Translations under genes and position numbers: made by a program
Assembly: GCA_028291515.1 (NCBI GenBank)
Contig: JAQGHU010000064.1
Span: forward strand, 1 to 64,000
Length of the DNA: 64,000 nucleotides
DNA from: Schlesneria sp.
GTDB lineage: Bacteria > Planctomycetota > Planctomycetia > Planctomycetales > Planctomycetaceae
Reading direction: 5' to 3'
Part shown: piece after piece, positions 2,031-58,202 of the stretch
How the letters are laid out: every line of letters starts with the position of its first letter
Numbering within the stretch: position 1 is the stretch's first letter
The notes under the pieces: model-generated
What the model was told of the DNA's origin: nothing
Seen by the model: only the letters and a program-made list of their open reading frames with translations
Database searches by the model: none

Positions 2031-3332
2031 TCAAGCGAATAGCCCATCGACCGGCTTGCCGCCATCGACGATCTTCATCGGCCGGCCCAGAGGGCTCATG
2101 TTTTCCTTGGAGGGATTGACCTCCAGCGACTTGCAGATCGAGCAGAACAGGTCAGGCACGCTGACCGGATCTTTGACCAGGCCGGTCCCATCCTTCGACG
2201 TCTCACCGATCACCTGCCCACCCTTCACGCCTCCACCAGCCAGTAGCGCATTGAAGTTGCGAGGCCAGTGATCGCGACCTGTCCGCGGGTTGACTCGCGG
2301 CGTCCGTCCGAACTCGCCGGTCCAGACAATCAGCGTCTTATCGAACAAGCCACGTTGCTTGAGGTCCGCAATCAACGCGGCCAGAGCCGGATCACACTGG
2401 CGAGCCAAACCCTTCACGGCATCGAAGTTGTCCTGATGAGTATCCCAGTTGCCCAATCGCACCTCAACGAACGTGACCCCCGATTCAATCAGCCTGCGAG
2501 CCAGCAGGCACCCACGACCGAAGTCTGTGTTGCCATAGCTCTCACGAGTCGCCGCCGATTCATGGCTGAGATCAAACGTCTTGGTGAGCGGACTGAGGAC
2601 CAGCTTCGAAGACTTATCAGTGATGCGGCGATGATTCTCGACAACGGTCGCTCCCCCTTGAGACGCGAACTCATCTTCGAGCTGATCGAGCAATCCCAAG
2701 CGCCGCTTGAAGCGTGATTCGTTGACGGTCATCGCGACGTTCTCAGGCAGCTTGCCCGGGTTAGCCACGTGGAAGGGTTCGTAGTCGACTCCCAGGAAGC
2801 CCGCGCCGCTGCCGCCGATCCCGGCCGCACGCCCGTTACCTATCGAGACCACCGCCGGGAGTTCACGTTCGGCATGCGAGAGTTCATGAGCGAGATTACA
2901 CCCGAGGGCAGGGTGCTTGATCGAGCCCGAGGGAATGTAGCCGGTATGCATCTGATAGACGGCTCGATCGTGCTGACCTTCCTTGTTGGTCATCGATCGA
3001 ATGACCGCGATATCCTGCATCTGCTTCGCGGTCTCTTCCCAGCCTTCGGCGATTTGAATGCCCGGCGCGGCCGTGCTGATCGCTTTGGTTGGCCCGCCAC
3101 TATCGGTGCCGGGCTTGGGATCGAAGGTCTCTAACTGAGACGGACCACCCTGCATGAACAGCAGGATCATGGCTCGGCCCTGCTTGCGCAGATCGGCCGC
3201 TTGAGCGGACATCACGTCGTGAAAGTTGAAGGCCCCCACCGCGGCGGCAGCCGATGTCCCATAGAGGAACCCTCGCCGAGAAACGGATTGCCGCTTGAGC
3301 GTGACATCTTCGTGCCAGGAGAATGCAGACAT
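2031..3332 (-). CDS. DUF1501 domain protein (secreted, Tat-type leader)
   Basis: A 433-residue member of the DUF1501 family, distantly related to sulfatases and alkaline phosphatases and very abundant in planctomycetes. The N terminus has a twin-arginine leader (SVSRRGFLYGTSAAAAVGAF). The family block MILLFMQGGPSQLETFDPKP follows, and later RGCLLARRLIESGVTFVEV and a TGEFGRTPRVN motif. ATG 3332 is preceded by ggag at 8 nt and gives a cleaner start than the upstream TTG at 3350. It lies immediately downstream of the DUF1549/DUF1553 gene (stop at 3351), so the two form an operon. Such pairs are thought to act outside the cytoplasmic membrane; the substrate is unproven. Confidence 0.9.
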   Translation of the reverse strand: MSAFSWHEDVTLKRQSVSRRGFLYGTSAAAAVGAFNFHDVMSAQAADLRKQGRAMILLFMQGGPSQLETFDPKPGTDSGGPTKAISTAAPGIQIAEGWEETAKQMQDIAVIRSMTNKEGQHDRAVYQMHTGYIPSGSIKHPALGCNLAHELSHAERELPAVVSIGNGRAAGIGGSGAGFLGVDYEPFHVANPGKLPENVAMTVNESRFKRRLGLLDQLEDEFASQGGATVVENHRRITDKSSKLVLSPLTKTFDLSHESAATRESYGNTDFGRGCLLARRLIESGVTFVEVRLGNWDTHQDNFDAVKGLARQCDPALAALIADLKQRGLFDKTLIVWTGEFGRTPRVNPRTGRDHWPRNFNALLAGGGVKGGQVIGETSKDGTGLVKDPVSVPDLFCSICKSLEVNPSKENMSPLGRPMKIVDGGKPVDGLFA

Positions 3333-3350
3333 GAACAGGACTCCGATCAA

Positions 3351-5198
3351 TCATCGTTTCGAGAGGAACTCGCTGGAGTTCAGTAGACTCCACATCAGGT
3401 CTTCATAGGCTTCGCCGCGCTGGCCGACATCCTTGATGTATGTCTGGCAGATTTCGATCTCGTGCTTCGACGGTTCGCGGGCCAGCACCAGCAGGTAGAG
3501 TTCACCCAACGCATCGCCTTCACGTTTGTTCTCACGCAGGATCTTGCCGAGTCGCGTGTTGTTGTTGGCGGTGAGTGCCGCCCTGAGAGCATTCGAATTC
3601 ATCAGGTACAGCGACTGCGGCACGTTGCCGGTGATGTCGTCCTTGGGGACCGAGGGGTCGACACCGAACAAGAAGTCGAACTGGAAACGAGGTTCGCGCT
3701 GATAGGCACGCGGTCCCCCCATCGCCTCGCGCCCTTCATTGGAGTTTTCGTTGATACCCAAGATCTGAAACAGTGAATTGAACACCAAGTCCGCTCGCAG
3801 TCGCGTTGGCGTGACCGCAGCAAAGGGAAGGGCATCCTCGGCGACGGGCTTCGCGGCCACTTTGCGCTGATAGGTCTGAGTCATTGCGATCGTCCGCACC
3901 AGCCAGCGTATATCGTGGTCGTTTGAAACGAAGCCTTTCGCGAGTGCATCGATCGCTTCGGGGAACCGTGCTGTTCGCGTTGGCCCCATGTCGTCGATCG
4001 GCATGTAGAACCCTTCGCCCAGGAACTCGGCCCAGACGCGGTTGACGATGGCTCGCGCGAACCACGGGTTTTTGCGAGATGTGAACGCATTCGCAACGGC
4101 GGCTCGCCGGCCTTCGTCCGAGAGGCCACGTCCGGGAGACGAGTCATCGACGAAAAACTTGGGCTGGATTAGTTTTCCTTTGGAGGCGGGATCGTTCAGG
4201 TCGGGCATGTAGTGTTCGGTGGAACCTCGTCGAGCCTGATTCGGAACAGGCATCGATTTGATTTCTTCAGCGGTCAGTGCATCATCTTTGTTGCTGTCAC
4301 CCTGCTCGAAGATGCGATCTACTAACTGTGCGGGAATGCCATTACCGGGCAACATCGACGCACGATTTCGCATCTCTTCTTTGGTGATTTTGCCGTCGCC
4401 ATTGCGGTCGTTGAATCTGACGAACTGCTCGGGGTTCTCGCGCATGAAGTCGCCGCGTCCGCGGTCCGCGTTGACCGAGGCGATTTCGAACGCGAGCGGT
4501 TGCTGAGTCTGCCGAACAGCGATGCGAGGGAAGTACGCGGCCAGCTCGTGGAACTGATTGCGTTTCCAGACATCTGAGGGATGATCGTGGCAGTTCGCGC
4601 ATTGCATCTGGATCCCCAGAAAAATGCGGCATGCTTCCGCGGCAATTTCTTCAGATTGACCACCCTGTGCGATCAGCAGCGCGGTCTCGGGATGTTCACG
4701 CACGTCACCGGTGGCGGTGAGCATCGAGGTGACGATCCGATCCCAGCCGACCCCGGAACTCAGTCTAAGCGCCATCCAATGTTCAAAGTCGGCTTGAGCG
4801 ATTCGAGCCCGAATGTCGGTGGCGGGCATGTAGACCACATCGCGCCAGTAGCGAGCCCAATTCTTGCCGTACTCTGGCGATCGCAGCAGTTGCTCGATCA
4901 GTTCTTCGCGTTTGTTCGCTTCGGGGTCGAGTGAAAAGATCGTGACATCGCGCGGCGAAGGGAGTTGGCCTGTGATATCCAGAGTGGTTCGTCGTAGAAA
5001 ATCAGCGTCGTTACAACGGTCCACCGGTGTGACTCCGCTGTGGCGGAGATCGGTCAGGATCAATCGATCGACTTCGGCAGCGACTGTGTTGGAATCAGCA
5101 GGTGCCGACGAAGAGCCCGCAGCACAGACCGCGGCAGTGATGCCGTAAGTCAACGCCAGGGCCAGGCCAACCGAGAACCATCGACTTCGCACGATCAT
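3351..5198 (-). CDS. DUF1549/DUF1553 protein with EF-hand insert
   Basis: A 615-residue secreted protein. It has a signal peptide (residues 1-27, ending AAVCAAG), a DUF1549 domain with EVDRLILTDLRHSGVTP and the QCANCHDHPSDVW cysteine/histidine motif, a central EF-hand-like stretch (FNDRNGDGKITKEE, then GDSNKDDALTAEE), and a DUF1553 half with NPWFARAIVNRVWAEFLGEG and an ALFLVLAREPS-like end. ATG 5198 has aaggag 7 nt upstream. The frame is open 86 codons further upstream, but those codons look non-coding. It is translated just before the DUF1501 gene. The family is known as a planctomycete surface or periplasmic partner of DUF1501. The two EF-hand loops suggest calcium binding. Confidence 0.9.
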   Translation of the reverse strand: MIVRSRWFSVGLALALTYGITAAVCAAGSSSAPADSNTVAAEVDRLILTDLRHSGVTPVDRCNDADFLRRTTLDITGQLPSPRDVTIFSLDPEANKREELIEQLLRSPEYGKNWARYWRDVVYMPATDIRARIAQADFEHWMALRLSSGVGWDRIVTSMLTATGDVREHPETALLIAQGGQSEEIAAEACRIFLGIQMQCANCHDHPSDVWKRNQFHELAAYFPRIAVRQTQQPLAFEIASVNADRGRGDFMRENPEQFVRFNDRNGDGKITKEEMRNRASMLPGNGIPAQLVDRIFEQGDSNKDDALTAEEIKSMPVPNQARRGSTEHYMPDLNDPASKGKLIQPKFFVDDSSPGRGLSDEGRRAAVANAFTSRKNPWFARAIVNRVWAEFLGEGFYMPIDDMGPTRTARFPEAIDALAKGFVSNDHDIRWLVRTIAMTQTYQRKVAAKPVAEDALPFAAVTPTRLRADLVFNSLFQILGINENSNEGREAMGGPRAYQREPRFQFDFLFGVDPSVPKDDITGNVPQSLYLMNSNALRAALTANNNTRLGKILRENKREGDALGELYLLVLAREPSKHEIEICQTYIKDVGQRGEAYEDLMWSLLNSSEFLSKR

Positions 5199-5507
5199 TG
5201 CCGACTCCTTGGAGTCCTGGAGGGCCGCACCGACATCGTCCGAAACGGACTGTCCGCTACTGCTCAGATGATACTTTAAACCCCTGCATCCGCCAAAAGG
5301 TTTCGATGGTGAGGTGGCCCTACAGGAAAAGTTAAGGTAATCGCGGAACTCCACGTCACATCCGGTCTGCCTGCGTTGCGGGAATGGCCTCCCCGACCGT
5401 AAACTTTCAGGGAATCCATACAAACTTCCGATTTCCGCTGTGTTGCCGGACGGCATTCGCTCTCTTCAATGTCCGGCAGCAGCCTGTAAATCCCGAAAGC
5501 GACTTCT
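5199..5507. promoter_or_regulatory. Divergent intergenic region, 309 nt
   Basis: Separates the DUF1549 operon (-) from the zinc-ribbon membrane protein (+), so both promoters must lie here. I see no clear consensus -35/-10 pair, repeat or structured RNA. Confidence 0.4.
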
Positions 5508-7265
5508 ATGCCCGTCAAGGTTCGCTGCTCGAGCTGCGACAAAGTGTTGACTGTTCCCGACGCCGCACGTGGCAAAGCGGTCAAGTGCCCTCAATGCGAC
5601 ACCAAAATCGCCGTGCCGGCGGGCGACGCCGACGATTCCAAAGTCATCAAGCCGAAAAAGAAGCCCGCCGCCGCGGCCGCAGCCCCTAAACCGAAGAAGC
5701 GTGTCGATTCTGAAGACGCCCTGATGGCGCTCGATTTGCGCCGCGCCGAAGATACCAATGCCCGCATTTGCTCGAAGTGCGGTTACGACATGCATGAGCT
5801 GGACGAAGATGAGACGGAATGTCCCAAGTGTGGCTTCGATATCGAAGCAGGGGGCATGGGCGCCAAGGCGAGAAAGCGAGCTCTAAGAGGTCCAGATCCT
5901 GCCGACTTCTATCCGGGCTTGGCCAAGAACGCAGGCAAGTTTGTCGGCAAGAACATCATGCTCGCCTGGCGGACCGATGCCTATACACTGGTTTGCCTGC
6001 TCATTTCACTGTTCTGTGCGTTCATGTATCTGTGGCTCTCGGCGTGGCCACCGCGGGCGTTTTTCGCGCTGTGCTTCTTTGTCTCGTTCCTGGTGATCCC
6101 GGGCTGGCTGTGGTACCTGGATACCGAAGTCATCAAGCTGACTTTGGAACGCAAAGACAAATTCAAGAAGCTCAATTTCGATTTCTTCCTGGCCAGTTCC
6201 AAGGGTGTGATCGGAGTTGCCTGGGCCTTGGTCGGGGCCGGGCCCATTTTGCTGTTGCCCGCCATGTTGGGCTATTACCTGGTCCACTACAGCGGGCAGC
6301 CCGAGTGGATGCTGCCAGTCTGCATCGGAATCGGCTTGTTGCCAATCGTCTGGATGCTGCCCATTACGATGTCTCACATGACGATGCCCATTTCCGTCCC
6401 GGCCTGGATGTTCTGGAAAGTCATTCAATTCTGGGGCCGAACTCTGGGTGGTTGTTCGGTCTGGCTGATGTGGATTCTGGTGACCAACATTCCCAACTTC
6501 GCCGCGGTCGGATTGATCGCCGGGGTGTGGGGAAATGACATTCAAAACATCGTGCAGACGATGGAATCGAATGCGGATATCAATCGCCAACTGCTCGCCG
6601 CAGAGAACGCCCCGAAGGGGAAGAACGCCAAGCCTGTCGACATCACTGCGATCGGCAAGCCCGTTGATGTTGATTTCAAGCCACTGATTGGCCCGGTGAT
6701 CATACTGGTGGTGATGTGCCTGCCAATCGGCTTCATCGCCATGTTTAACATGCGTATCAATGGGCTGTTCACGTATTACTTCCGAGACCGCATGGAACTG
6801 GTGGACAAAGCGAAGGATTACAAGTACGTCGCGAAAGCACGCCGCGATCCGAATGACGATGACGATGTGCCGCGGACGCTGCAACAGGATGCGGTGGAAG
6901 GTGCGGTCGCGACGGTCGTCTGTGCTTTGGTCGGGGTGATCGGCGGAATGCTGTATGGTGCCCTGCAAGGTAAACCGATGATGGCAGCGATTCTCGTCGG
7001 GGGGCTATATGGTTCGTACTTTGCCATGGCGATTGCCCAAATCAACCTGATCGTCACGGGATTCAAAGAAAAGGTTTGGTGGGGTTTGATCGTCTGGTTC
7101 GTTCCCCTAGGTTCCGTGGTTTTCATCATTCAGCATTGGGTGGTTGCACGAAAGACCGCATTCCAACTGATCACTGCCATCGTGCTATTGATGATTTTCG
7201 TGATCGCTGTCACGGTCACAGTTGTGGCTGATGTTGCTGCTGGTGGTGCACCACCAGGAGTTTAA
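5508..7265 (+). CDS. Double zinc-ribbon multi-pass membrane protein
   Basis: A 585-residue protein. Residues 1-40 form a zinc ribbon (C7xxC10 and CPQC). A basic Lys/Ala linker follows, then a second ribbon (CSKCGYDMHELDEDETECPKCG, given here only as key residues C/C...C/C). From about residue 150 it has eight or more hydrophobic segments, with a polar loop near residues 345-380 and another near 430-460. The zinc-ribbon head resembles MJ0042-type or GYF-like heads seen on many planctomycete membrane proteins. No enzymatic motif was seen and the function is unknown. The C-terminal third (GGMLYGALQGKPMMAAILVG) is glycine-rich and membrane-embedded. The + strand gene stands alone, with a convergent neighbour downstream. 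Confidence 0.7.
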   Translation: MPVKVRCSSCDKVLTVPDAARGKAVKCPQCDTKIAVPAGDADDSKVIKPKKKPAAAAAAPKPKKRVDSEDALMALDLRRAEDTNARICSKCGYDMHELDEDETECPKCGFDIEAGGMGAKARKRALRGPDPADFYPGLAKNAGKFVGKNIMLAWRTDAYTLVCLLISLFCAFMYLWLSAWPPRAFFALCFFVSFLVIPGWLWYLDTEVIKLTLERKDKFKKLNFDFFLASSKGVIGVAWALVGAGPILLLPAMLGYYLVHYSGQPEWMLPVCIGIGLLPIVWMLPITMSHMTMPISVPAWMFWKVIQFWGRTLGGCSVWLMWILVTNIPNFAAVGLIAGVWGNDIQNIVQTMESNADINRQLLAAENAPKGKNAKPVDITAIGKPVDVDFKPLIGPVIILVVMCLPIGFIAMFNMRINGLFTYYFRDRMELVDKAKDYKYVAKARRDPNDDDDVPRTLQQDAVEGAVATVVCALVGVIGGMLYGALQGKPMMAAILVGGLYGSYFAMAIAQINLIVTGFKEKVWWGLIVWFVPLGSVVFIIQHWVVARKTAFQLITAIVLLMIFVIAVTVTVVADVAAGGAPPGV

Positions 7266-11433: not shown

Positions 11434-12300
11434 ATGGCGAAAAAAGCAGCCTCAGTGAAGCCAGCCGGCGAACGCGCCAGTTGGAAGGGTCAACTGAATT
11501 TCGGACTGGTCTCCTTCGCGGTCGAGGCGTTCAACGCTCTCAATCGACAAAAGAGCGATATCCATTTCCATCAATTGCACGCCAAGTGTCACAGCCGCAT
11601 TCACTACCAGAAGGTCTGCCCGATCCACGGCGAGGTCCCTAACGACGAAATCGTCTCGGGCTACGAAGTGAGCAAAGGAAAGTATGTCGAGTTCGATCCT
11701 GAGGAACTCGATAAATTGCGAACGGACAGCGAGAAGGCATTGAACATCGATGCCTTCATCCCACCCGAGACCATCGATCCGCTCTATTTCGACGGACGAA
11801 TGTACTACCTGCTGCCAGCCAACTCGGGATCGCACGAAGCCTTCAGCGTCGTCGTCACAGCGATGGAAAAGGAAGGCCAGTACGGGGTCGGCCGGATCGT
11901 GATGTCCGGCAAAGATCAAATCGTGCTGCTGCGCCCGATGGACGGTCTGTTGCATATGGCCATGCTCAATTACTCAGTCGAGATCCGACCCGCCAACGAG
12001 ATGAAACTCGCAAAGGCCAAAGCCGGTAAAGACCAGGCCAAGCAACTCAAGATCGCTCAGTCATTGATCCAGCAATGGACCGACGACAAGTTCGATTTCG
12101 CACAATACAAAGACGACTACAAACAGCGAGTCGAAAAGCTGATCGCGTCCAAGGTCAAAGGCCGCAAGATCGAAGCCCCAAAAGAAGAGGCCGAAGAACC
12201 GGTCACGTTGAACCTGATGGAAGCACTACAGAAGAGCCTGGCGAAATCCGGTGCGCCCAAGAAGAAGAGTTCGACATCGCGAAAGTCGCGTTCCGCGTGA
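11434..12300 (+). CDS. ku: Ku protein, NHEJ DNA-end binding
   Basis: A 288-residue homodimeric bacterial Ku. Family features seen are the start SWKGQLNFGLVSFAVEAFNA, the HQLHAKCHSRIHYQKVCP segment, VSGYEVSKGKYVEFDPEEL, and the long core ending MKLAKAKAGKDQAKQLKIAQSL. The C terminus is a basic tail (KKKSSTSRKSRSA), of the sort implicated in LigD recruitment and DNA binding. ATG 11434 is preceded by caggaga. It lies 31 nt after ligD on the same strand, the usual bacterial NHEJ pair. It binds duplex ends in the nucleoid and stimulates LigD. Confidence 0.97.
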   Translation: MAKKAASVKPAGERASWKGQLNFGLVSFAVEAFNALNRQKSDIHFHQLHAKCHSRIHYQKVCPIHGEVPNDEIVSGYEVSKGKYVEFDPEELDKLRTDSEKALNIDAFIPPETIDPLYFDGRMYYLLPANSGSHEAFSVVVTAMEKEGQYGVGRIVMSGKDQIVLLRPMDGLLHMAMLNYSVEIRPANEMKLAKAKAGKDQAKQLKIAQSLIQQWTDDKFDFAQYKDDYKQRVEKLIASKVKGRKIEAPKEEAEEPVTLNLMEALQKSLAKSGAPKKKSSTSRKSRSA

Positions 12301-12334: not shown

Positions 12335-12561
12335 TCAGTCCCCTCAGGGACGATCGATAATAGCCCACCGTTTCAACGGTGGGTTAGGCCACAGAAAAAT
12401 CGGCAGTCCCAGAGGGACGACAGACAACTCATGTTAGGCCACAACCAGGATTGTTTCGGATCATCTTGTTCTTTCGTCCCTGACGGGACTGGTCTTATTG
12501 ACATTGTCCTACCCCACCGTTGAAACGGTGGGCTATTATCTATCGTCCCGCTGGGACTCGG
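12335..12561. repeat. Foldback repeat with CCCACCGTTTCAACGGTGGG hairpins
   Basis: The left arm 12335-12392 (cagtcccctcagggacga, then ataatagcccaccgtttcaa and the rest) matches the reverse complement of the right arm 12505-12561. Each arm itself contains a perfect palindrome, cccaccgtttcaacggtggg at 12365-12384 and its variant near 12512-12531. An inner pair reads agtcccagagggacgac and tcgtccctgacgggact. It lies just downstream of Ku and could also end that transcript. Confidence 0.85.
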
Positions 12562-12737: not shown

Positions 12738-13127
12738 ATGAATGAGCACCAGCGACGTCAATCATTCCGGAAGCAAGGACTATTTGTTGTTGCTGTAGCA
12801 GTTCTGCTCTACGGTGTGTTGAATGTTGTGAGCGGATATCTTTTGAAGGCGGCCCTCCGGAGTGGTGCACGTCGCTTGGTTGAGGTGGTTCTGTTACTTC
12901 CGTGTTATCAGAGAACCGCAATAGTATTCGACGCCTTAGATACACCAGATCCGATATTGGAGCTTGACGCCACGTTTGCCGCAAAGCTAATCATCAATGG
13001 CGGTCTTGCTGTCGAGGACAGGGAAAAACTACGAAAGAAACTAGAACCAAAGGCCGATTCGGCAATTCTTGAGGAAACAAGAACGGTTGCTCGCGATGCG
13101 ATTAAGATTCTCGATGGATCGGGGTAA
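12738..13127 (+). CDS. Small membrane-anchored hypothetical protein
   Basis: A 129-residue protein with one N-terminal hydrophobic segment (about residues 14-32, GLFVVAVAVLLYGVLNVVSG). The remainder is soluble and ends in a charged helix (EDREKLRKKLEPKADSAILEE). ATG 12738 has gggag at about 8 nt. The frame is open upstream into the foldback repeat, but that part is not plausible protein. Base composition is more AT-rich than in Ku or LigD. It is the first of five small + strand genes that look like gene cassettes. No family recognised. Confidence 0.55.
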   Translation: MNEHQRRQSFRKQGLFVVAVAVLLYGVLNVVSGYLLKAALRSGARRLVEVVLLLPCYQRTAIVFDALDTPDPILELDATFAAKLIINGGLAVEDREKLRKKLEPKADSAILEETRTVARDAIKILDGSG

Positions 13128-13140
13128 CAATTGCGGACCG

Positions 13141-13407
13141 AGGGAGTGCCACACAGATGTCGTTTCCGCATTGCCTGTGGGCGACGAAGCGTCGACCACC
13201 TGCGTCGCCGCTGCAGAGCGGGGGACCGGGCTGGCCCAGGCAATGTTCGCGGAGTTGCGGCGCTGGTTGCCAGCGCGCGAAGGGATTCTCTTCATTCGAC
13301 GCGACAACGTGGCCTCGCTGCGCGCTCATCAGAAGATGGGGATGAACGAAGTCGGTCGTTTTGTATTTGCTGGCAGTGAGTTTGCGATTCTTTCCTACAT
13401 CGGGTGA
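13141..13407 (+). pseudogene. GNAT acetyltransferase, C-terminal fragment
   Basis: The frame encodes the second half of a GNAT fold: an acetyl-CoA loop-like ERGTGLAQAMFAELRRWL, then ILFIRRDNVASLRAHQKMGM and a final strand FAILSYIG. The N-terminal strands and helices of a GNAT (about 60-80 residues) are missing. Directly upstream is the stop of the previous gene at 13125-13127, followed by gtaacaattgcggaccgag. No good ribosome site precedes the fragment. I read it as a truncated gene whose 5' part was lost at a junction. The alternative is a short single-domain protein started at a non-ATG codon. Confidence 0.6.
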
Positions 13408-13606
13408 AGCGGAATCGACTGTGGCTCCTCATCACGATCGAATACCAACTCCCAAACGGACGATTCATCGAACGAATACAGTGACCTAAAGGTCGTGACA
13501 CCCACCCGCTAAGTCGTCATGGAATTGCATTCCAGACTCAGTACCCACAACCGGTTCAATACAAAGACATTCAACTGGACGGGAATTCAGCGTTTCGTTC
13601 TCTGAA

Positions 13607-13749
13607 TCCTTCGTGCTCTTCGTGTCCTTCGTGGTGAAAGCATGCTGAACAAGCTAGTTAACTTGATCCGCAGTCGCTGTTGATTCACAGTGTTGGCGTG
13701 TGACGAGCGGTAGAGAATGACCACGAAGGACACGAAGAGCACGAAGGGG
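13607..13749. repeat. Inverted repeat, CTTCGTGTCCTTCGTGGT family
   Basis: Arm 13607-13635 (tccttcgtgctcttcgtgtc plus cttcgtggt) is the near-perfect reverse complement of 13720-13749. The arms are built from a roughly 9-bp module, cttcgtgtc or cttcgtgct. The 85-nt interior carries one copy of the aacttgatccgcagtcg motif also found at 14670 and 44493. No gene was found in 13408-13871. Confidence 0.85.
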
Positions 13750-13871
13750 GAATTTGATGAGCTTTCCAGTCGCTTGATCGGTTGTGCCGTCGAGGTCCAC
13801 TGAATCCTAGGTCCGGGGTTGCTGGAATCTGCCTGCGAGCAATGTTTGGCGTATGAGCTAATGGGGTAGTT

Positions 13872-14201
13872 GTGTTTGCGCTGCGAGTACGCATCAATAA
13901 CGAAGAACCAGTTACCGCGGGCACCGATGATCTTGGTGTGGTCACCGCAACTGTAACTGGCGTCGGTACGCTTGGCCCAAGTTCAGTTCCTCGCCGCACT
14001 AACGAAGGTCAGGAATTCCATTGCCACTTAGGCGGTCTTACAGGTCGCGGATCAACTGTAGAAAACAACCACTTGTTTTGGTTGCAGCAATATGATCTGA
14101 AGGTCGGCGATACAGTGACGATTGAGATTGTCGAAGTCGATTCCGCCAGTCCCGTCGTGGGCTCAAGGGCTGCCAAGAACAGAGAGTCACCGAAGGCATA
14201 A
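13872..14201 (+). CDS. Small conserved hypothetical protein (cassette type)
   Basis: A 109-residue soluble protein starting at GTG 13872. It has an LRVRINNEEPVTAGTDDLGV opening, a GLTGR segment and a strand-rich end LKVGDTVTIEIVEVDSASP. This reads like a small beta fold of a family I have seen as stand-alone planctomycete genes, but I cannot name its function. The first codon is preceded by ggggtag, a weak ribosome site. The stop is immediately followed by ataacaagcggtcaacccga, which resembles the 5' half of an integron attC site. Confidence 0.55.
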   Translation: MFALRVRINNEEPVTAGTDDLGVVTATVTGVGTLGPSSVPRRTNEGQEFHCHLGGLTGRGSTVENNHLFWLQQYDLKVGDTVTIEIVEVDSASPVVGSRAAKNRESPKA

Positions 14202-14268
14202 CAAGCGGTCAACCCGACATTGCGCCGCGGGCAGATTTGGCGTTCCGAATCACGAAAGCGAAGTAGAC
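14195..14268 (+). other. attC-like site remnant
   Basis: The sequence after the previous stop reads cataacaagcggtcaacccg, similar to the R''-L'' half of integron attC sites. Before the next ATG (14277) there is aagtagacc, one base short of the R' consensus GTTRRRY. The intervening stem does not fold well by eye, so it would be degenerate. Confidence 0.3.
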
Positions 14269-14276
14269 CCATACTT

Positions 14277-14654
14277 ATGGCAAACGCACCAGCCGAGATC
14301 TCTTCAGCACACGTCGAACTGCTCCGCGCGGCTTATGCGGCTTTCAACGCGCGGGACATTGATGCCGCCCTCGCCCTCATGACGCCGGATGTGGCTTGGC
14401 CGCGAGCGTTCAAAGGGGGCTTTGTCCGCGGACCGGAAGAGGTCCGTGCTTACTGGACGGAGCAGTGGAGCGAGATCAACCCACATGTCGAGCCGCTGTC
14501 GTTTCACTCGGAGGATGCCGGACGAATCCTGGTCGAAGTGCATCAGGTCGTGCGCGACATGGCAGGAACCCTTTTTGCCGATGATCGCGTTGGTCATCGA
14601 TTCTCAATTGAGCAGGGCCTAATTAAAAGCATGGAGGTCTGTTCGCTTCCCTAG
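14277..14654 (+). CDS. NTF2-like (SnoaL-type) family protein
   Basis: A 125-residue protein with the opening helix and pattern of the NTF2/SnoaL cone fold (LLRAAYAAFNARDIDAALALM, shown here as its key Y-FNARD-DA core). It then has TPDVAWP, GPEEVRAYWTEQWSEI and a beta-rich end VGHRFSIEQGLI. Members are small isomerases, hydrolases or ligand-binding proteins; nothing here fixes a substrate. ATG 14277 was chosen over the upstream in-frame start at 14220, which falls in a non-coding-looking, possibly attC-derived segment. Third intact member of the five-gene cassette-like run. Confidence 0.75.
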   Translation: MANAPAEISSAHVELLRAAYAAFNARDIDAALALMTPDVAWPRAFKGGFVRGPEEVRAYWTEQWSEINPHVEPLSFHSEDAGRILVEVHQVVRDMAGTLFADDRVGHRFSIEQGLIKSMEVCSLP

Positions 14655-14754
14655 GCATTCCGTCTTGACGGACAACTTGACCCGCAGTCGGCGGCGGTTC
14701 ACAGTGTTTGGCGTGTTGATCTCAATCGTCGGCAAGTGACTCTGAACGTTAGAC
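14655..14754 (+). other. attC-like site with aacttgacccgcagtcgg motif
   Basis: The 112-nt gap between two cassette-type genes contains the dispersed motif aacttgacccgcagtcggcg and cagtgtttggcgtgt at about 14670-14722. It ends in gaacgttagacgg, a perfect R'-type GTTAGAC at 14748-14754, only 12 nt before the next start codon. That spacing is as expected for a cassette. The 5' R'' match is poor (ccctaggc). Confidence 0.35.
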
Positions 14755-14766
14755 GGAGGGCTTAGG

Positions 14767-15204
14767 ATGGGTCGCATCGGTGGACTGCACGAAATCCCCC
14801 GCGACGCGTTTGAGCAGGTTATTGCGGGTAGTGAACTTGAACTCCATAGAATGCCCTCGTACGCACTCGACAAGTCGTGGTATGAATTTCATATCGTTTT
14901 TCGAAAGCAGGGGCCGCCACTGAGTCTTGCAGTTTCCGGCGACTATCCAGACCCACAATACCCTTACAGTCTTGATGAATTCGTTACGGGTGATTTTGAA
15001 TTCTATTGCGCTTACGCTTCGCCATCACTGGTTCATAAGATTGCCGACGTGCTGGCCGGGATCGATTCGTCGGATTACGAGCGTTTGGCGAACGAGGTGC
15101 TTGCGGGACGGTATCCCCCCGATGTGATTTTTTTTGGCAGCTTGAAATCCGCCTACACCGAGGTCGCCACCCGAAATAACGCGCTGATGATTTCGATATG
15201 CTAA
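14767..15204 (+). CDS. DUF1877-like small protein (weak)
   Basis: A 145-residue protein starting MGRIGGLHEIPRD, with LDKSWYEFHIVF near residue 35 and a long helix around HKIADVLAGID, followed by YERLANEVLAG. This order (MGxxG start, a short LDKxWxxxHxxxx strand, then helices) resembles DUF1877/YfbM proteins, but the match is by eye and weak. ATG 14767 lies 12 nt after the GTTAGAC. The N-terminal half reads as real protein. The C-terminal end (VATRNNALMISIC) is short for the family and could be altered. Confidence 0.5.
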   Translation: MGRIGGLHEIPRDAFEQVIAGSELELHRMPSYALDKSWYEFHIVFRKQGPPLSLAVSGDYPDPQYPYSLDEFVTGDFEFYCAYASPSLVHKIADVLAGIDSSDYERLANEVLAGRYPPDVIFFGSLKSAYTEVATRNNALMISIC

Positions 15205-15514
15205 TATGTTCGCGAATGATGATTGGGTTGGCTGGCATTGAAACGACCCCGCCGTCAGAGGTTGGCTCTTCTGACTACGCTAGCACCTCGAAACGGTTCT
15301 CGGCTGGACAAAGCTGGCGGATCCCTTAGAATCTAGCTGTCCCGCTCACCTGCCTGGCCACCTTGCCGGGCCTTCCGAGTGGATACCGCACAGTCGACGC
15401 AATCCGTGCGATTGAACTGATTCGCGGCACTCATCCGTTCAGCTCCTTGTACTCGGCTTGCGTCCGCGCTGTTGCTGCTTCAAGATGCGGCGACTGCGCA
15501 ATCGGAGAGACCCA
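15205..15514. other. Intergenic region before tatC, 310 nt
   Basis: No gene, named repeat or strong hairpin was seen. The tatC frame stays open for 19 codons upstream of its chosen start but reads as a Cys/Arg-rich non-protein stretch. The tatC promoter should lie here. Confidence 0.35.
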
Positions 15515-16579
15515 ATGGCGACCGAAAAAGATCTGTTTGATGACTCGACCATGACGTTTGGCGAGCATCTGGAAGTACTGCGGACTCATTTGATCCGGGC
15601 TCTGCTGGGCCTGTCCATCTGCGTCATTCTGGCGTTGATGTACGGCGAGAACCTGGTCCGGCTGATTCGCCAACCGGTCGACGCGGCACTGCGCCGAGCC
15701 AACTTCATCGCCAAGGTGGATGACAACGTCAAAGGTGTCTCCTTCTGGGATTCGATCAAAGGTTGGTTTTTACCGCCCGACACATCGGCGTCGCAACGGC
15801 CAGAGAACGCTCCCCTGGTGACTCCGGAAGCGCGTCGCACGATTTCATTGCAGCTCCCCGCGTATGAATTAGCTGATCAACTGCATCAGGCGGCACCCGA
15901 TAGCTATCCTGCGGCACCGGAAATGTTGAAGGAACGGATGCTGACATTGCATGCTCAGTCCGAGGCGTTTCTGCAGTTTCGCACGGAAATGGATAAGATG
16001 TCTCGGCCGGTCACGCTGAACGTGCAGGAAGCGTTCGTCACTTACATGAAGGTGTCGTTCGTCGCCGGTCTGATCGCGGCCAGTCCGTGGGTGCTGTATC
16101 AGTTGTGGTTGTTCATCGCTGCCGGTCTGTATCCGCACGAGCGCAAGTACATCTATACGTATCTGCCCATGAGCATCATCTTGTTCCTGGGTGGCGTGAT
16201 GTTCTGCTTCTATGCCGTGCTGCCGACAGTGCTGGACTTTCTGTTGGGCTACAATGCTCGCATCGAGTTGACGGCGCAGATCCGGATCTCTGAGTGGATC
16301 AGTTTTGCCATCATGCTGCCGCTGATGTTCGGGCTGAGCTTTCAGTTGCCGCTGATCATGCTGTTCCTGGCGAAGATCAATATCTTCACCGTCGATCAGT
16401 ATCTGGGTCAGTGGCGGATCGCCGTGATGGCAATTGCGATCATCTCGATGTTGCTGACGCCGACGCCCGATCCGATGACCATGATCATGATGATGGTGCC
16501 GCTGCTATTGCTGTATGCGTTGGGCGTCTTACTGTGTCATTGGAGCAAGCCGAAGCCGACGGTTGAGGCGGCGACGTAA
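15515..16579 (+). CDS. tatC: Sec-independent translocase TatC with large periplasmic insert
   Basis: A 354-residue TatC. The start MTFGEHLEVLRTHLIRALLG gives the cytoplasmic head and TM1. The conserved core EAFVTYMKVSFVAGL, PWVLYQLWLFIAAGLYPHER, and LPLIMLFLAKINIF carry TM2-TM6. Normal TatC is about 240-260 residues. Here about 110 extra residues (roughly 60-170, Pro/Glu/Gln-rich) sit in the first periplasmic loop between TM1 and TM2. TatC binds twin-arginine signal peptides with TatA/B, which are not in this window. ATG 15515 has ggagag 6-7 nt upstream. Several neighbours, including the DUF1501 proteins, carry Tat-type leaders. Confidence 0.92.
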   Translation: MATEKDLFDDSTMTFGEHLEVLRTHLIRALLGLSICVILALMYGENLVRLIRQPVDAALRRANFIAKVDDNVKGVSFWDSIKGWFLPPDTSASQRPENAPLVTPEARRTISLQLPAYELADQLHQAAPDSYPAAPEMLKERMLTLHAQSEAFLQFRTEMDKMSRPVTLNVQEAFVTYMKVSFVAGLIAASPWVLYQLWLFIAAGLYPHERKYIYTYLPMSIILFLGGVMFCFYAVLPTVLDFLLGYNARIELTAQIRISEWISFAIMLPLMFGLSFQLPLIMLFLAKINIFTVDQYLGQWRIAVMAIAIISMLLTPTPDPMTMIMMMVPLLLLYALGVLLCHWSKPKPTVEAAT

Positions 16580-18600: not shown

Positions 18601-18797
18601 TGGTCACTCCTTTCGTTCGCGTCGGTCGGCAGGACATCTAAGCAAGTCGATCGGATTCTAACGATGGGGGGCAGGTTGGGGAAGACGCGCGGGTCAGGTT
18701 TAGGCGGCTTACCGCAACCAAATCAGCCTGTCTGGTTAACCTATATCCACTATGTTGGCGTGACTTGGCCGAAGTGACCATGTTTAAACTCTCACTC

Positions 18798-18919
18798 GTC
18801 ATTCCCGCGCAGGCGGGAATCCAGCCATTTCGTATCGAATTATGGACGCCGAGATTTCCACCACTGCAGCATCGACATCGTCCCGCGATTCGCTGGATTC
18901 CCGCCTGCGCGGGAATGAC
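18798..18919. repeat. Inverted repeat GTCATTCCCGCGCAGGCGGG, copy 1
   Basis: Arms 18798-18824 and 18893-18919 are perfect inverse copies (gtcattcccgcgcaggcggg plus aatccag). Each arm is also a small hairpin (attcccgcgcaggcgggaat). Other copies are at 21142 and 59444, with a degraded piece near 25692. The form resembles widespread REP/dRS3-type repeats of other bacteria. It sits 26 nt beyond the sulfotransferase stop. Confidence 0.9.
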
Positions 18920-18945
18920 GGAAAGTAGGAGGGGATGGTGGAAAG

Positions 18946-20115
18946 CTACGACGGAAGTCGGCTGGGATAGCCGTAAAGATCGAAAGACTTCTGCCAGCGT
19001 GAATAGACCTTCCGCATCGTCCCTTCGTCCATGTTGAACGAGTTCTTGCGATATTCGTTCAGTGAAGGAAGCTCCTTCTGCAGAACTGGTGCCACCTTGT
19101 CCCATCCGCCCAGGCTGAGCGCGTCGTAAACCTGTTTCATTTGACTCATTGGATCCGCTTCCAGGTCTTCGAATTTCATTTCGTGCAGGCGGCCGGCAGG
19201 GATCAACTGCTTGGTATTTTCGTAGGTGTCGATGCAGTCGCTGTAGACCTGCAGGATTTCTTCGTCCATCCCTTTGAGATTCGCCGTGCCCAGACCGTTC
19301 TCCAGGAACAATGTCTTTCGAAGATGCATACTGGAGCTGAAGACCGCATAGGGATCGCGATAGATGTAGACGAATTTTGCGTTCGGAAACATTTCCAGCA
19401 GGACGGGAACGCGGAAGGTGTGCGACGGTGATTTCAACACGATCGGCTTGTTGTCTCGCACGGTCAGCTTCTTGACGAACGTCATGAAGGCGTCTTGCCA
19501 GCGGCGGCGTTCGTCGGGCGTTAACTGCTTGAGATCGAAGAAGCGGCACGTTTTATCGGGGGCTCCCTGGTGAGCGAGCATCAGATAGGGAGACATCAGT
19601 GTCAGCAGCAGCAGTGCCATTTCATCTTCCTGCGGCAGGCTCCAGCCCGCAGGAATGTTGTCCATGGGACGCGTTTTCGGCAGCACCCAACCGGTCAGTC
19701 GCGTGACGATTTTCTCGGTCAACAGGAAGTTGCCCGGATACATCACCTGATACAGGTTGGGGTAAGTGAACTGAGGATCGAGCGTCATCAGGTTGTGCAG
19801 CAATGTGGTGCCGCTGCGCCAGTGTCCCAGGATGAAGATCGGTGGATGTTCGATTTTTTGCCGGGCGATCTTGCCGCCGAACAGCACCGATTCCCAAAGA
19901 TCATTCGACGAATTCAGCATGCTCAGGGGCGTGATGGTTGCCATCCGCGGCAACGCAGCCAATCCCATGGGGGGGCGACTGGCGAGTAATCGCAACCACG
20001 TTCCGAATGTCAGTCCATGCCAGACGCAAAAATGGCCCTGTTTTTTCGGTTTGCTTTCGGGCCGGTTGGTTGCGGGTGATTCGGCGATCGGGCTGGTCTG
20101 GGGAGTCGAAGTCAC
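18946..20115 (-). CDS. PAPS-dependent sulfotransferase family protein
   Basis: A 389-residue cytosolic protein. The PAPS 5'-phosphosulfate loop is FILGHWRSGTTLLHN near residue 95, and the 3'-phosphate-binding element is VYIYRDPYAVFSSSMHLR near residue 260. Both are standard for the Sulfotransfer_1/3 clan; the acceptor substrate cannot be read from sequence. Between them is IPAGWSLPQEDEMALL, typical of bacterial members. The start is GTG 20115 with aggaagag about 8 nt upstream. Monocistronic, minus strand. Confidence 0.88.
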   Translation of the reverse strand: MTSTPQTSPIAESPATNRPESKPKKQGHFCVWHGLTFGTWLRLLASRPPMGLAALPRMATITPLSMLNSSNDLWESVLFGGKIARQKIEHPPIFILGHWRSGTTLLHNLMTLDPQFTYPNLYQVMYPGNFLLTEKIVTRLTGWVLPKTRPMDNIPAGWSLPQEDEMALLLLTLMSPYLMLAHQGAPDKTCRFFDLKQLTPDERRRWQDAFMTFVKKLTVRDNKPIVLKSPSHTFRVPVLLEMFPNAKFVYIYRDPYAVFSSSMHLRKTLFLENGLGTANLKGMDEEILQVYSDCIDTYENTKQLIPAGRLHEMKFEDLEADPMSQMKQVYDALSLGGWDKVAPVLQKELPSLNEYRKNSFNMDEGTMRKVYSRWQKSFDLYGYPSRLPS

Positions 20116-44289: not shown

Positions 44290-44356
44290 CGCTGGTCTTC
44301 TCGCCGAACGAACAAGGTAACTTGCCCGCGACTAACGACGGGCTGCCATTCCAAGA

Positions 44357-44397
44357 CGAAACAAGCCCCAGCATATCGCCGGGGCTTGCCTGTTTCG
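44357..44397. terminator. Hairpin downstream of modC
   Basis: cgaaaca / tgtttcg and agcccc / ggggct pair around an 11-nt loop, with a 4-nt bulge on one side. It lies 160 nt past the modC stop and upstream of the membrane protein start. No T run. Confidence 0.5.
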
Positions 44398-44487
44398 ATC
44401 TCAGCTTCACATCGCAGCAGCAGTCAGCAAATCAGCGAGCTTCGCCCGCCACTGATGCGCAATGTTCGGCGGCTGCCGAGCCGCTCG

Positions 44488-44525
44488 GTCAACTTGACCC
44501 GTCGTCGCAGGCGGTTTCCATATCC
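44488..44525. repeat. Dispersed aacttgacccg motif, third copy
   Basis: gctcggtcaacttgacccgt, cgcaggcggttt follows. It matches the motif at 13658 and 14670 over about 25 bp. It sits between modC and the membrane protein gene, with no cassette-like gene beside it. Confidence 0.4.
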
Positions 44526-44559
44526 AAATTAGCTGCTCACTACCCAATTTCGCGGGCCA

Positions 44560-45672
44560 TTAATCATGCGGGATCAAGTGGATCGCTGGTGCCTTCAAAC
44601 TCGCGGTCACATGATCACCGACTTGCAATCGCAACTCTTCGCAGGCGGGTCGGGTGACGAGCGCGGTCAACTCGAAACCACAGTCGAGCGTGATGCGGAC
44701 AAGCGGCCCTTCGGGGACGATCGATTGAATGACCGCTGGCAGATGATTGCGGACGCTGCTTTCGCCCGAAGTCCCTTTCTGGATTGCCACGTCTTCACCA
44801 CGAATGCAGACATGAACCGTTCGCGCAGTCTCTTCGGGTGCCACGGCGAGCAGCGTTGCTGAACCAACTTGAACCGTGGCGAGTCCTTCGTGAACCTTCA
44901 AGATGGTTCCCAACGCGACGGTTTCCACGCCGACGATTCGCGCCACGGCCAGATCGTTAGGCCGAGTGATCACCTGCTGGACCGTTCCCGTCTGTCGAAT
45001 CCGCCCCGCGTCCATCACCACGATCTGATCGGAGAGCGCGATCGCCTCGGTGCGATCATGAGTCACGATCACAACGGGAATCTGAAATTTGACGAGTAGC
45101 CTTCGCAACTGTGTTCGCAGTTGTTCGCGCAGCGTCGCATCTAGTGCCGATAGCGGTTCATCCAGTAACAACAGTTTGGGGCGACGAACCAACACACGAG
45201 CCAACGCGACTCGTTGCTGCTGCCCGCCAGAGATCTGGCCGGGTCGACGATGTTCCAGCCCAACGAGATCGAACAACTGCAGCATTTCGTCCACAACGCA
45301 CAGATCGAGTAGGCCTCGTGATCGATTGCTCCGCAAGCTGTAGCCAATGTTCTCGGCGACAGTCATGTGTGGGAACAGAGCATAGTCCTGAAACAGAAAA
45401 CCGACATCGCGTTGTTGCGGCGTCAGATTAATGCGCAATTCGCTATCGAACCAAGTCTGGCTGGCCACTCGAACTGAGCCGCCGCTTGGGCGTTCCAGCC
45501 CCGCCAGGCATCGCAGCACAGTGGTTTTGCCACAGCCTGAAGGGCCGAACAACGTCGTGACCGAGAACCCACTCGGGATCTGCAGGTCTGCAACGATGCG
45601 TGGGCCGCGCACAAACTGCTTCTCGAACCTGGCCACAAGCTGCGTCTCAGGCAGACTCCGTACGTTGCTCAT
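44560..45672 (-). CDS. modC: Molybdate ABC transporter ATP-binding protein
   Basis: A 370-residue ABC ATPase. It has Walker A LFGPSGCGKTT, the signature ISGGQQQRVALAR and Walker B LLLLDEPLSALD. The C-terminal ~130 residues hold a TOBE/MOP-like domain. ATG 45672 overlaps the modB stop by ATGA, so it is translationally coupled, with gggaga 8 nt upstream. ModC energises uptake of molybdate through ModB with the binding protein ModA. The operon order is modA, two small genes, modB, modC, all on the minus strand. Confidence 0.94.
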   Translation of the reverse strand: MSNVRSLPETQLVARFEKQFVRGPRIVADLQIPSGFSVTTLFGPSGCGKTTVLRCLAGLERPSGGSVRVASQTWFDSELRINLTPQQRDVGFLFQDYALFPHMTVAENIGYSLRSNRSRGLLDLCVVDEMLQLFDLVGLEHRRPGQISGGQQQRVALARVLVRRPKLLLLDEPLSALDATLREQLRTQLRRLLVKFQIPVVIVTHDRTEAIALSDQIVVMDAGRIRQTGTVQQVITRPNDLAVARIVGVETVALGTILKVHEGLATVQVGSATLLAVAPEETARTVHVCIRGEDVAIQKGTSGESSVRNHLPAVIQSIVPEGPLVRITLDCGFELTALVTRPACEELRLQVGDHVTASLKAPAIHLIPHD

Positions 45673-46331
45673 GTCAGGTTCTCCCGTCGACTCAGCGCAT
45701 GCGTGAAGCACAGCACCGTGAACGAGAACCCGACCAACAACAAGGCCGTCCGCCCGGCGGTCGCATAGTCCAAGGCTTGAACATTGTCATAGATGGAGAT
45801 CGAAAGCGTGCGAGTGATGCCGGGGATGTTGCCTCCCAGCATTAACACGACTCCGAACTCGCCCACCGCATGAGCGAACGTCAGCACCAATCCCGTCAAG
45901 ATGCCAGGCCAGCAGAGGGGCAGGGTGACCCGACAGAAGGTTTCGAATCGCGACGCACCCAAGCACCACGAAGCTTCGATCAGACGACGGTCCAACGCCG
46001 CAAAGGCCGCAATAAATGGCCGAATCGCGAAAGGGAGGTTGCCCAGCACCGATCCCAGCAAGATCCCCGCGAACGAAAACGGCAGGCGTCCTCCGGTCAG
46101 TTGCTCGTACCAGTGCCCCAGCGGGCTATGCGGCCCCAGCGCGACCAGCAGGTAAAAGCCCAGCACCGTCGGCGGCAGAATCAGCGGTAGTGAGACGATC
46201 GCTTCGAGAACAAATCGCCCTGGCCAGCGAGACGTCGCCAGCCAGTAGGCCATGGGTAGCCCAAGGACAAGCAGGATGGCAGTGGTGCTGCTGGCCAGCT
46301 GCAGCGTCAACCAGATTGCCTGCCAGTCCAC
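45669..46331 (-). CDS. modB: Molybdate ABC transporter permease
   Basis: A 220-residue membrane permease with five or six segments. It carries the ABC EAA-type loop EASWCLGASRFETFCRVTLP and LPFAIRPF, plus HAVGEFGVVLMLGGNIPG, which is diagnostic for ModB/CysTW-type permeases. The start is GTG 46331 with ggag 8 nt upstream. It is coupled to modC (4-nt overlap). The gap to modA is about 0.8 kb and holds the two small genes described below. Confidence 0.94.
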   Translation of the reverse strand: MDWQAIWLTLQLASSTTAILLVLGLPMAYWLATSRWPGRFVLEAIVSLPLILPPTVLGFYLLVALGPHSPLGHWYEQLTGGRLPFSFAGILLGSVLGNLPFAIRPFIAAFAALDRRLIEASWCLGASRFETFCRVTLPLCWPGILTGLVLTFAHAVGEFGVVLMLGGNIPGITRTLSISIYDNVQALDYATAGRTALLLVGFSFTVLCFTHALSRRENLT

Positions 46332-56265: not shown

Positions 56266-58202
56266 GCCCCTTTGCTCGCCGTCTGTTCGCGCTGCCAGGT
56301 TCGCTTGGCGACATGGCGACATGGGGCACCGGCAATGTGTTTCCGTTGCTCTCGCGCGAGTTAACCGAGCAGGCGGCCCGTCGACGTACGTTTGTCGTGC
56401 GAGTTGTCTATGCCGTCGTGTTGTACGTCGTCGCGATCTGGATTTTCTATAATCAGGTCGAAAGCTGGTCGAGTCGAACATTCACCGCGCTCGGTCAAGG
56501 GCTACCGATCTTCATCGGACTCGGCTGGCTGCAATTCTTCGGCATTTACCTGTTCCTGCCCCCCATGACCTGCGGCGTGTTAACCGCCGAAAAAGAACGA
56601 GACACCCTGTCGCTGCTGATGCTGACGCGATTAGGGCCCTGGTCGATCCTGATCGGCAAACTGTTCAGTCGTATGATCACCATGGCGTCGTTCATTTGCC
56701 TGTCACTGCCATTGTTCGCCGTGGCGTACAGCTTTGGTGGAGTCGAAGCGACGCAGATTCTAAGTCTTGGCTGGGGGCTGGCGGTCACGTCACTGCAGAT
56801 CGGGTCGCTGGCGCTGGCCTGCTCGGCGTGGTGCCGCACAACGGGCTCGGCGTTTCTCGCGACGTATCTGATCGGGGCCTTTGTCATCGCCGCCCCCAAC
56901 TTTGTCACGCAAGGGGGCAATCTCGATCACTTCGGCATCTTGGAATTCCTGGCCGAATACTGTCGCACGATGGGTTTTGCGGGCGATGAAGTCACGCATG
57001 GGGATGTCACTCTGGTCTTGTTCGGACCTTGGGTATGTCTCGATCAGCAGGCATCCAATCGACCGTTTGCCGCTACCGTGGCGCGAACAGTCCCCATGCT
57101 GCTCTCGGCGGCCGTCTGCCTGTTCTTCGCCCGAGCGATGCTCTGGCGACGCGCGTTCGTGGCACCGTCGAATGTCATGCTGAAGATGTTCCGGTCGCTC
57201 GACACGCTGTTTCATCGACTAAACCAGAACCGGTTGACACGCGGAATCGTGCTGACGCGCGAACATGTCCAACTGCCGCTGTACGATCCGATTCGCTGGC
57301 GCGAAACGAAGAAGCGTTCGTTGGGAACCACGCGATATCTCATCCGCCTGTTGCTGGTGCTGGAGATCCCGGTCCTGTTCGGAATGCTGATTCCGTTCTA
57401 CGGCGACGTCACCTCGAACTATGCGCCGGCATTTGTCGCAGCGTGGATCGTCTGGGTCATCTCCGCTTTGGTCATCGCGATTCACGCCACGGGGCTGATC
57501 GGGCTGGAACGATCTCGGCAAACGATGGACGTTCTGCTGACCACTCCATTGACCAGCGAATCCATCGTGAAAGAAAAGTTCGCTGGGATCTCGCGAATGA
57601 TCGTCGTGTTGTGGATCCCGCTGGCGACGGTCTATCTGTATCAGGTCTGGTGGACAGGTTGGGTCGGCAGCTTCGAACCGAGTGAGATCCTCTTTGGAAT
57701 CTTGCGCGGCCTGCTGGCCATGTCGATCTATCCCTGGCTGATCGCCTGGATCGGATTTCATTTCGGGATGCGCTGTCGCTCGCAAGCTCAAGCGGTCTTG
57801 GTCACACTCAGCGTGCTGACCGCGGTCTGCGTGATTCCCGCGGCGCTCGCTACTTACCTCCATTCGAACGGACTGTGGACACTCGGCGAAATCGGTTGGT
57901 TAAGCCCTGCGATGGTGTTGACGGAGAGTACATATGGTCGCCAAATGTTTTTGGATTACCGCTATTCCAACAATTTCAATAGCTATCTGGCCCTCAGAGC
58001 ATGGGGAGGCCTGTTCTGTCACTTTTTCCTGGCTGGCCTGCTGCTACTCTGGCTGAGACTTCGAGTTCTGAGAACATTTGCTGGCCGACTGGGCCGCAAC
58101 GACGGACAGATCATCGATGACGACGACATCGAACGCCTCTCGGAACTCCGTCGTCAGATCCTCAAAAGCGGGATCTTCCGAACGAATCCGAATGACGAAT
58201 GA
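56262..58202 (+). CDS. ABC-2 type permease, second (paralogous) subunit
   Basis: A 646-residue membrane protein paralogous to its upstream neighbour. The shared blocks are LSRELTEQAARRRTFVVRVVYA, GVLTAEKERDTLSLLMLTRL and DPIRWRETKKRSLGTTRYLI. It differs by an N-terminal extension (SPFARRLFALPGSLGDMATW) and by an acidic C-terminal tail (DGQIIDDDDIERLSEL). It may form a heteromer with the first permease. ATG 56262 overlaps the upstream stop by ATGA. It is last in the operon; repeat element 6 begins right after its stop. Confidence 0.88.
   Translation: MSPFARRLFALPGSLGDMATWGTGNVFPLLSRELTEQAARRRTFVVRVVYAVVLYVVAIWIFYNQVESWSSRTFTALGQGLPIFIGLGWLQFFGIYLFLPPMTCGVLTAEKERDTLSLLMLTRLGPWSILIGKLFSRMITMASFICLSLPLFAVAYSFGGVEATQILSLGWGLAVTSLQIGSLALACSAWCRTTGSAFLATYLIGAFVIAAPNFVTQGGNLDHFGILEFLAEYCRTMGFAGDEVTHGDVTLVLFGPWVCLDQQASNRPFAATVARTVPMLLSAAVCLFFARAMLWRRAFVAPSNVMLKMFRSLDTLFHRLNQNRLTRGIVLTREHVQLPLYDPIRWRETKKRSLGTTRYLIRLLLVLEIPVLFGMLIPFYGDVTSNYAPAFVAAWIVWVISALVIAIHATGLIGLERSRQTMDVLLTTPLTSESIVKEKFAGISRMIVVLWIPLATVYLYQVWWTGWVGSFEPSEILFGILRGLLAMSIYPWLIAWIGFHFGMRCRSQAQAVLVTLSVLTAVCVIPAALATYLHSNGLWTLGEIGWLSPAMVLTESTYGRQMFLDYRYSNNFNSYLALRAWGGLFCHFFLAGLLLLWLRLRVLRTFAGRLGRNDGQIIDDDDIERLSELRRQILKSGIFRTNPNDE

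Follow-up and report, generated by a model that had tools for sequence, protein, structure and literature searches.

CALINs have been proposed to be degraded integrons, and IntegronFinder 2.0, according to the part of its description used here, requires by default at least two attC sites to report one (PMC9024848). The locus studied here, the gap between ku and tatC on contig C75 of a draft Schlesneria genome, lies within a 64 kb stretch of DNA that was analysed as a whole (the window). It resembles a CALIN, as that part of the description presents it, in combining attC remains and cassette-size genes with no integrase nearby, but differs in holding one complete attC and two half-sites, below the threshold of two, and in that the complete site no longer folds. 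In Xanthomonas, chromosomal integrons with inactivated intI have been described together with CALINs at other loci (PMC12444791, in the sections drawn on here). Our case shares with it a broken intI, attC clusters at other loci and a cassette content that varies among close relatives, yet concerns other bacteria, with sites on many contigs, both single and in series, and a native attC of ~108 nt with outer boxes GCCGAAC/GTTCGGC. An attC covariance model for Planctomycetes also exists and, as far as the cited portion of that work goes, likewise relies on taxon-specific attC sequence and structure (PMC8352920); here a single genus is treated, and sites were scored instead with a model of our own, R1.

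We read the ku–tatC gap as a decayed integron cassette array, a CALIN remnant, with a probability of roughly 0.88. This reading rests on attC remains of two types, on what is left of two tandem GxxExxY cassettes, on ORF3, which by its sequence context is a cassette gene elsewhere, on a gene content that differs between sister species although the site is the same, and on the truncated integrase found elsewhere in the genome. The features of the locus are as follows.

11434–12300, + strand: ku, left border, identified by Pfam/NCBIfam comparison
12738–13127, + strand: ORF1, 129 aa, no family match; attC absent behind it, at most a candidate cassette
13138–13199, + strand: short dispersed repeat at the truncated GNAT end, with copies in G012 and G011
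13196–13412, + strand: GNAT acetyltransferase gene, 3' part lacking the 5' end; the copy at the same locus in G012 has 173 aa
13516–13579, + strand: piece from inside a GxxExxY (PD-(D/E)XK-type) cassette gene, 89% identical in DNA to the cassette on G011 C88
13589–13701, + strand: end of the first GxxExxY cassette and 5' half of its attC, 83% DNA identity; attC 3' half missing
13707–13861, + strand: second GxxExxY cassette, 5' fragment interrupted by an in-frame stop, 85% identity over 13707–13857
13872–14201, + strand: ORF3, 109 aa; of 150 family genomes, 8 (its own included) have relatives
14196–14250, + strand: 5' half of a second-type attC, 3' half absent; type not seen elsewhere in its own genome
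14277–14654, + strand: SnoaL-like gene, at the same locus in G012 with 88% aa identity
14662–14754, + strand (matched on the bottom strand): full-length degenerate native-type attC, R'' GTTAGAC at 14748–14754
14767–15204, + strand: DUF1877-like gene, last of the array; attC absent behind it
15494–16579, + strand: tatC, right border, identified by Pfam/NCBIfam comparison

The five small same-strand genes described by an earlier, sequence-only reading of this DNA, including an NTF2-like protein, a GNAT fragment and a weak DUF1877-like protein, were all located, and profile matches were obtained by Pfam/NCBIfam comparison. The gene at 14277–14654 matched SnoaL_2 (E 3.1e-12), whose protein we take to have the NTF2-like fold. 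The GNAT fragment ends at 13407 and its domain match takes in the domain end only; 69 of its residues align to the 173-aa gene of G012, identifying it as a truncated gene. The DUF1877 match of 14767–15204 lies barely over the cut-off (E 0.00015, 22.4 bits versus 22), and this gene was found in its own genome only among 150 of the family. Neither ORF1 nor ORF3 had a Pfam or NCBIfam match passing any cut-off. The composition claimed to be unlike that of the neighbouring genes differs modestly: GC is 53.7% in the region against 56.7% in the window, the 11th lowest value among 616 overlapping windows. The short repeat 13138–13199, which in the window sits at the GNAT break point, is also shared with G012 and G011, copies being noted at L095 9425 and 12222.

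The R box, the L box and the extrahelical base are the established terms of attC anatomy, and the general form of R'' is GTTRRRY. The 17 attC sites behind our covariance model R1 all lie elsewhere in the genome, none in the window, although these seeds were picked via similarity to the window's own site, with 14655–14775 as query; that search, which scored 40 of 50 candidates, returned 40 matches in the genome, counting the query itself and two further places on C75. Across the whole 64 kb window, R1 gave five matches up to E 10. The best, 14662–14754 (46.7 bits, E 7.4e-11 over 64 kb), is full-length and degenerate, and stands well above background, as the check proposed in the sequence-only reading had sought to establish. 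Its R'' end corresponds to gaacgttagacgg, which had been placed 12 nt before the next start: GTTAGAC at 14748–14754 ends 12 nt before the ATG at 14767 and fits the general R'' form. A half-site match followed at 13672–13701 (20.6 bits), belonging to the half attC of 13589–13701, whose R' GCTGAAC lies at 13644–13650, and another window match at 56655–56720 reached 9.7 bits. With filters off, R1 gave 26 matches up to E 10 in 12.3–15.5 kb, of which 14662–14754 and 13672–13701 were the two below E 0.1; no site below that value was found behind the 12738 ORF, the GNAT gene or the DUF1877 gene. Both attC-like features assigned to the gaps between the genes, at 14196–14250 and 14662–14754, exceed chance.

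Elsewhere in the window, R1 half-site matches at 44303–44405 (20.7 bits, E 0.0022) and 44475–44578 (14.1 bits, E 0.18), in opposite orientations, may represent a second relic; they adjoin an ABC-ATPase-like ORF at 44560–45711, named by eye. A search of 11.4–16.6 kb against Rfam up to E 1 returned no attC family and two matches only, both to Acido-Lenti-1, an RNA that the cited part of its description lists for Acidobacteria and Lentisphaerae (PMC2864571). These matches (RF01687), at 12337–12383 on the minus strand and 12513–12558 on the plus strand, form the two arms of an inverted repeat (45 nt, 93%) that follows ku. At the gathering score, Acido-Lenti-1 was absent from 14 other loci totalling 146 kb, the G012 locus included, and the pair would resemble a mobile palindromic pair more than a lone RNA gene. 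Beyond tatC, the ORF 18765–19037 has the letters 'VIPAQAGIQ...RWIPACAGMT', a pattern presumably as in dispersed palindromic repeats.

Between its outer boxes GCCGAAC...GTTCGGC, the ~108-nt native site has inner boxes AACTTG/CAAGTT, close to which one G is unpaired, and a stem CCCGC/GCGGG. In the 17 sites, 94.4% of cells pair, versus 19–47% when the structure is slid by 1–3 columns. Covariation is weak, with one pair changed on both sides (reached by 47 of 500 shuffles), and the percentage paired was reached by 132 of 500. Because the covariation is too weak for proof, the structure rests on general attC anatomy, the slid controls and single-strand folding. At E ≤ 0.001, R1 matched at least 48 times in the own genome and at least 57 times in G012, counts that, like all genome-by-genome attC counts here, are lower bounds, with 150 candidates scored per genome. 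Matches at this level occurred in 11 of 25 genomes, namely 11 of 15 within the genus and 0 of 10 outside it. Among 50 own-genome matches at E ≤ 0.001 (17 seeds included, opposite-strand echoes left out), 35 score 46.7 bits or more and 15 score lower. Spread over many contigs, singly and in series, these sites are often closely spaced, for example at 98.4–100.9 kb of C60 and 29.1–33.9 kb of C32.

The gap at 13408–13871 is not empty: at 13.5–13.86 kb, two GxxExxY cassettes have left pieces separated by half an attC. The sequence-only reading overlooked these pieces; the stretch matches repeats on several contigs. On contig C88 of G011, a full GxxExxY unit is enclosed by attC sites of 131 and 127 bits; its product is a GxxExxY protein of 123 aa (TIGR04256, 151 bits; PF13366, 147 bits). 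On contig C68 of the same genome, the attC sites flanking such a unit score 40.9 and 120.8. The window carries unit positions 167–230 and 404–511 of one cassette and then 9–159 of the next, joined inside the attC, and its pieces share 81% (30/37) and 85% (22/26) aa identity with the G011 protein, placing them in the family. Within the own genome, full-length GxxExxY protein alignments were obtained on C102, C93 and C67, with flanking attC matches of 28–37 bits for C102 and C67 and an adjacent one of 104.8 bits for C93. In G011 and the own genome, GxxExxY genes next to an attC match or enclosed by such matches were recorded at L129 2100–2660, L130 246–806, L054 7205–7573, L059 2382–2750 and L057 3433–3801. 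A 28-nt perfect inverted repeat (13608–13747) was considered as a MITE carrying half an attC and dropped, its arms being the two end borders of GxxExxY cassettes. Tentatively, and with a chance clearly below even, we propose that GxxExxY genes of this genus, bordered by CTTCGTGTCCTTCGTGGT repeats, move as integron cassettes and undergo tandem duplication, and that their perfect inverted repeats may help break arrays, scattering cassettes to places such as the ku–tatC gap. A limited literature search found no description of GxxExxY as an integron cassette, which does not prove that none has been reported.

The second attC type is represented by cataacaagcggtcaacccg, previously noted after a stop; it overlaps the stop of the 13872 ORF, that is, ORF3, and is the first half of another attC type. 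For 14180–14290, no further copy was found in the own genome, the next match having E 0.83. The stretch behind an ORF3 relative from another genus (L120, 54% aa identity) aligns from window position 14196 with a score of 44, against a maximum of 31 in 2000 shuffles, none of which reached the half-site alignment score, and the site before the L120 gene aligns as well (score 39, shuffle maximum 28). The downstream L120 site folds poorly (z −0.17) and seemingly lacks its end too. The exact 20-nt pattern of the half-site gave no match in the genome collection, from which own-genome records may be left out, and the similarity was therefore established by alignment. Relatives of ORF3 in the 8 of 150 family genomes, own included, come from 8 genera. 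GTTAGGC stands 5–13 nt before the start in 4 of 8 loci of the seven other genomes (L120, L121, L125, L127); the other four have no GTTRRRY within 60 nt before the start, nor does the window's own ORF3, where a GxxExxY fragment occupies that place. Three stretches upstream of ORF3 relatives fold with z of −1.96, −3.52 and −1.78. Among named genomes, seven further relatives turned up, in three Planctomycetaceae MAGs, Alienimonas chondri, Albitalea terrae, Massilia arenae and a Nitrospirae MAG. Of these, L139 and L143 only have GTTAGGC near the start, with flanking letters as in L120 and L121; those of L122, from the same family, are as in the Alienimonas record L142, in line with a probable planctomycete origin of the window. 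As far as such neighbourhoods can show it, ORF3 is a cassette gene in other genomes.

The sequence-only reading had taken the locus for a CALIN-type remnant without integrase, and the attC signal above background and the integrase content of the genome bear this out. None of the 22 tyrosine-recombinase (PF00589) matches in the genome lies on C75, so that no intact IntI stands beside the array. The integron integrase sought elsewhere in the genome was found once: the only match over the TIGR02249 cut-off, on C32 (287 versus 265 bits), covers profile positions 9–231 of 315 in a 390-codon open frame, and the LRHSFATHLL-type C-terminus present in G001, G006 and G012 is absent from the three same-strand frames over 1.8 kb. 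A series of attC sites of the same type as the window's starts ~0.64 kb from this match. The truncated IntI (G000:C32:27468–28422) adjoins a tRNA gene (C32:27468–27538). Since the draft genome consists of 119 contigs, another integrase could be missing from the assembly. Full-length IntI is present in related species; on C188 of G012 it occupies 638–1588, with attC matches in series at 2553–6874.

G012, the closest relative and a sister species (Ku 97%, TatC 96% aa identity), is the sole genome comparable at the ku–tatC site. The spacing between the two genes is 4.25 kb there versus 3.19 kb here; the flanks are 91–93% identical in DNA, and homology ends at 12342 and resumes at 15297. Between these borders, 13196–13412 (86%), 14276–14656 (90%) and the short repeat are common to both, with GNAT and SnoaL in the same order. 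The gap in G012 instead holds a 181-aa ORF that matches nothing in Pfam, a DUF7674 gene, a Clp_N-like ORF slightly below the cut-off, an 81-aa ORF and a SUKH gene, together with an attC remnant of 26.9 bits; ORF1 has no match in that locus. When relatives were compared for cassette gain or loss, as had been suggested, the content thus differed even in the sister species, and the same five genes in the same order were not encountered. Over 14 further loci, beside tatC in 13 other relatives and beside ku in G003, no attC was found up to E 1; ku was not found beside tatC in those 13 (2.6–8.7 kb upstream covered), so these loci say little about insertion.

The comparison also bears on the idea that the gap is a chromosomal hot spot, where small genes and repeats pile up via illegitimate recombination with few cassettes among them and most turnover is not integron-made. 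The blocks shared with G012 end near the SnoaL and GNAT gene ends, another repeat (13138–13199) lies at a break point, and three ORFs have no attC. Elsewhere in G007 and G008, in both of which R1 gave 0 native attC matches, SnoaL has relatives of 77% and 74% DNA identity; together with the GNAT–SnoaL order kept in G012, this suggests that SnoaL may be a resident of longer standing rather than a cassette. The hot spot, which partly overlaps with a decayed array, is nevertheless unlikely as the principal account, given four attC remains in the gaps of two species (window 13644, 14196 and 14662; one in G012) and the occurrence of ORF3 and GxxExxY as cassette genes elsewhere.

The bottom strand of a functional attC folds into paired R and L boxes. 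In 14662–14754, R' and part of the L box are unpaired, and as single-stranded DNA the bottom strand has z +0.65, 149 of 200 shuffles folding at least as well. Both window half-sites likewise fold no better than shuffles (z +0.45 and +1.31), and the G012 remnant has z +1.59. Eleven native sites range from −3.98 to −0.32, with 9 of 11 at −1.48 or lower and two weak (−0.32, −0.81). With the fold of 14662–14754 lost, the array is probably inert and probably no longer mobile. A small array still mobilisable in trans by an incoming outside integrase would accord with the R'' of that site, GTTAGAC, having the GTTRRRY form and with full-length IntI in related species, but is made quite improbable by the unpaired boxes and by a z value outside the native range. 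Such mobilisation is known for CALINs, according to the cited part of the Xanthomonas work (PMC12444791). An origin unrelated to integrons, with ordinary small genes and chance attC-like words, would suit a locus with one complete site only and three ORFs without attC neighbour, but is hardly credible beside E 7.4e-11 for that site and dozens of sites of the same make, some serial beside IntI genes.

Under the decayed-array reading, cassettes would have entered the ku–tatC gap through an active ancestral IntI, the target being either an attC or a secondary site on the chromosome. Exchange of cassettes would have gone on for as long as the integrase worked, and attC sites and genes would later have decayed through deletions and point mutations; expression of some ORFs as ordinary genes may persist. 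That the cassette remains were placed here by IntI is a step we infer. The claim that all five genes are cassettes stands in part: the array remains are real, and ORF1 and the GNAT, SnoaL and DUF1877 genes are candidate cassettes at most. The locus has an attC found by covariance model (14662–14754, genus model R1) and no integron integrase nearby; with one complete site and otherwise half-sites, it falls short of the two sites of the IntegronFinder default, and 'CALIN remnant' is therefore the exact label.

The ku–tatC gap adds a new, unexceptional case to a known class of gene-capture remnants and leaves the understanding of integrons unchanged. It shows how a cassette array wears, with two attC types adjacent, sites halved, genes truncated and the integrase broken elsewhere, while two sister species kept the same site with different cargo. 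A genus-level attC model comes out of the analysis as well, and its results point to integron cargo among the GxxExxY genes.
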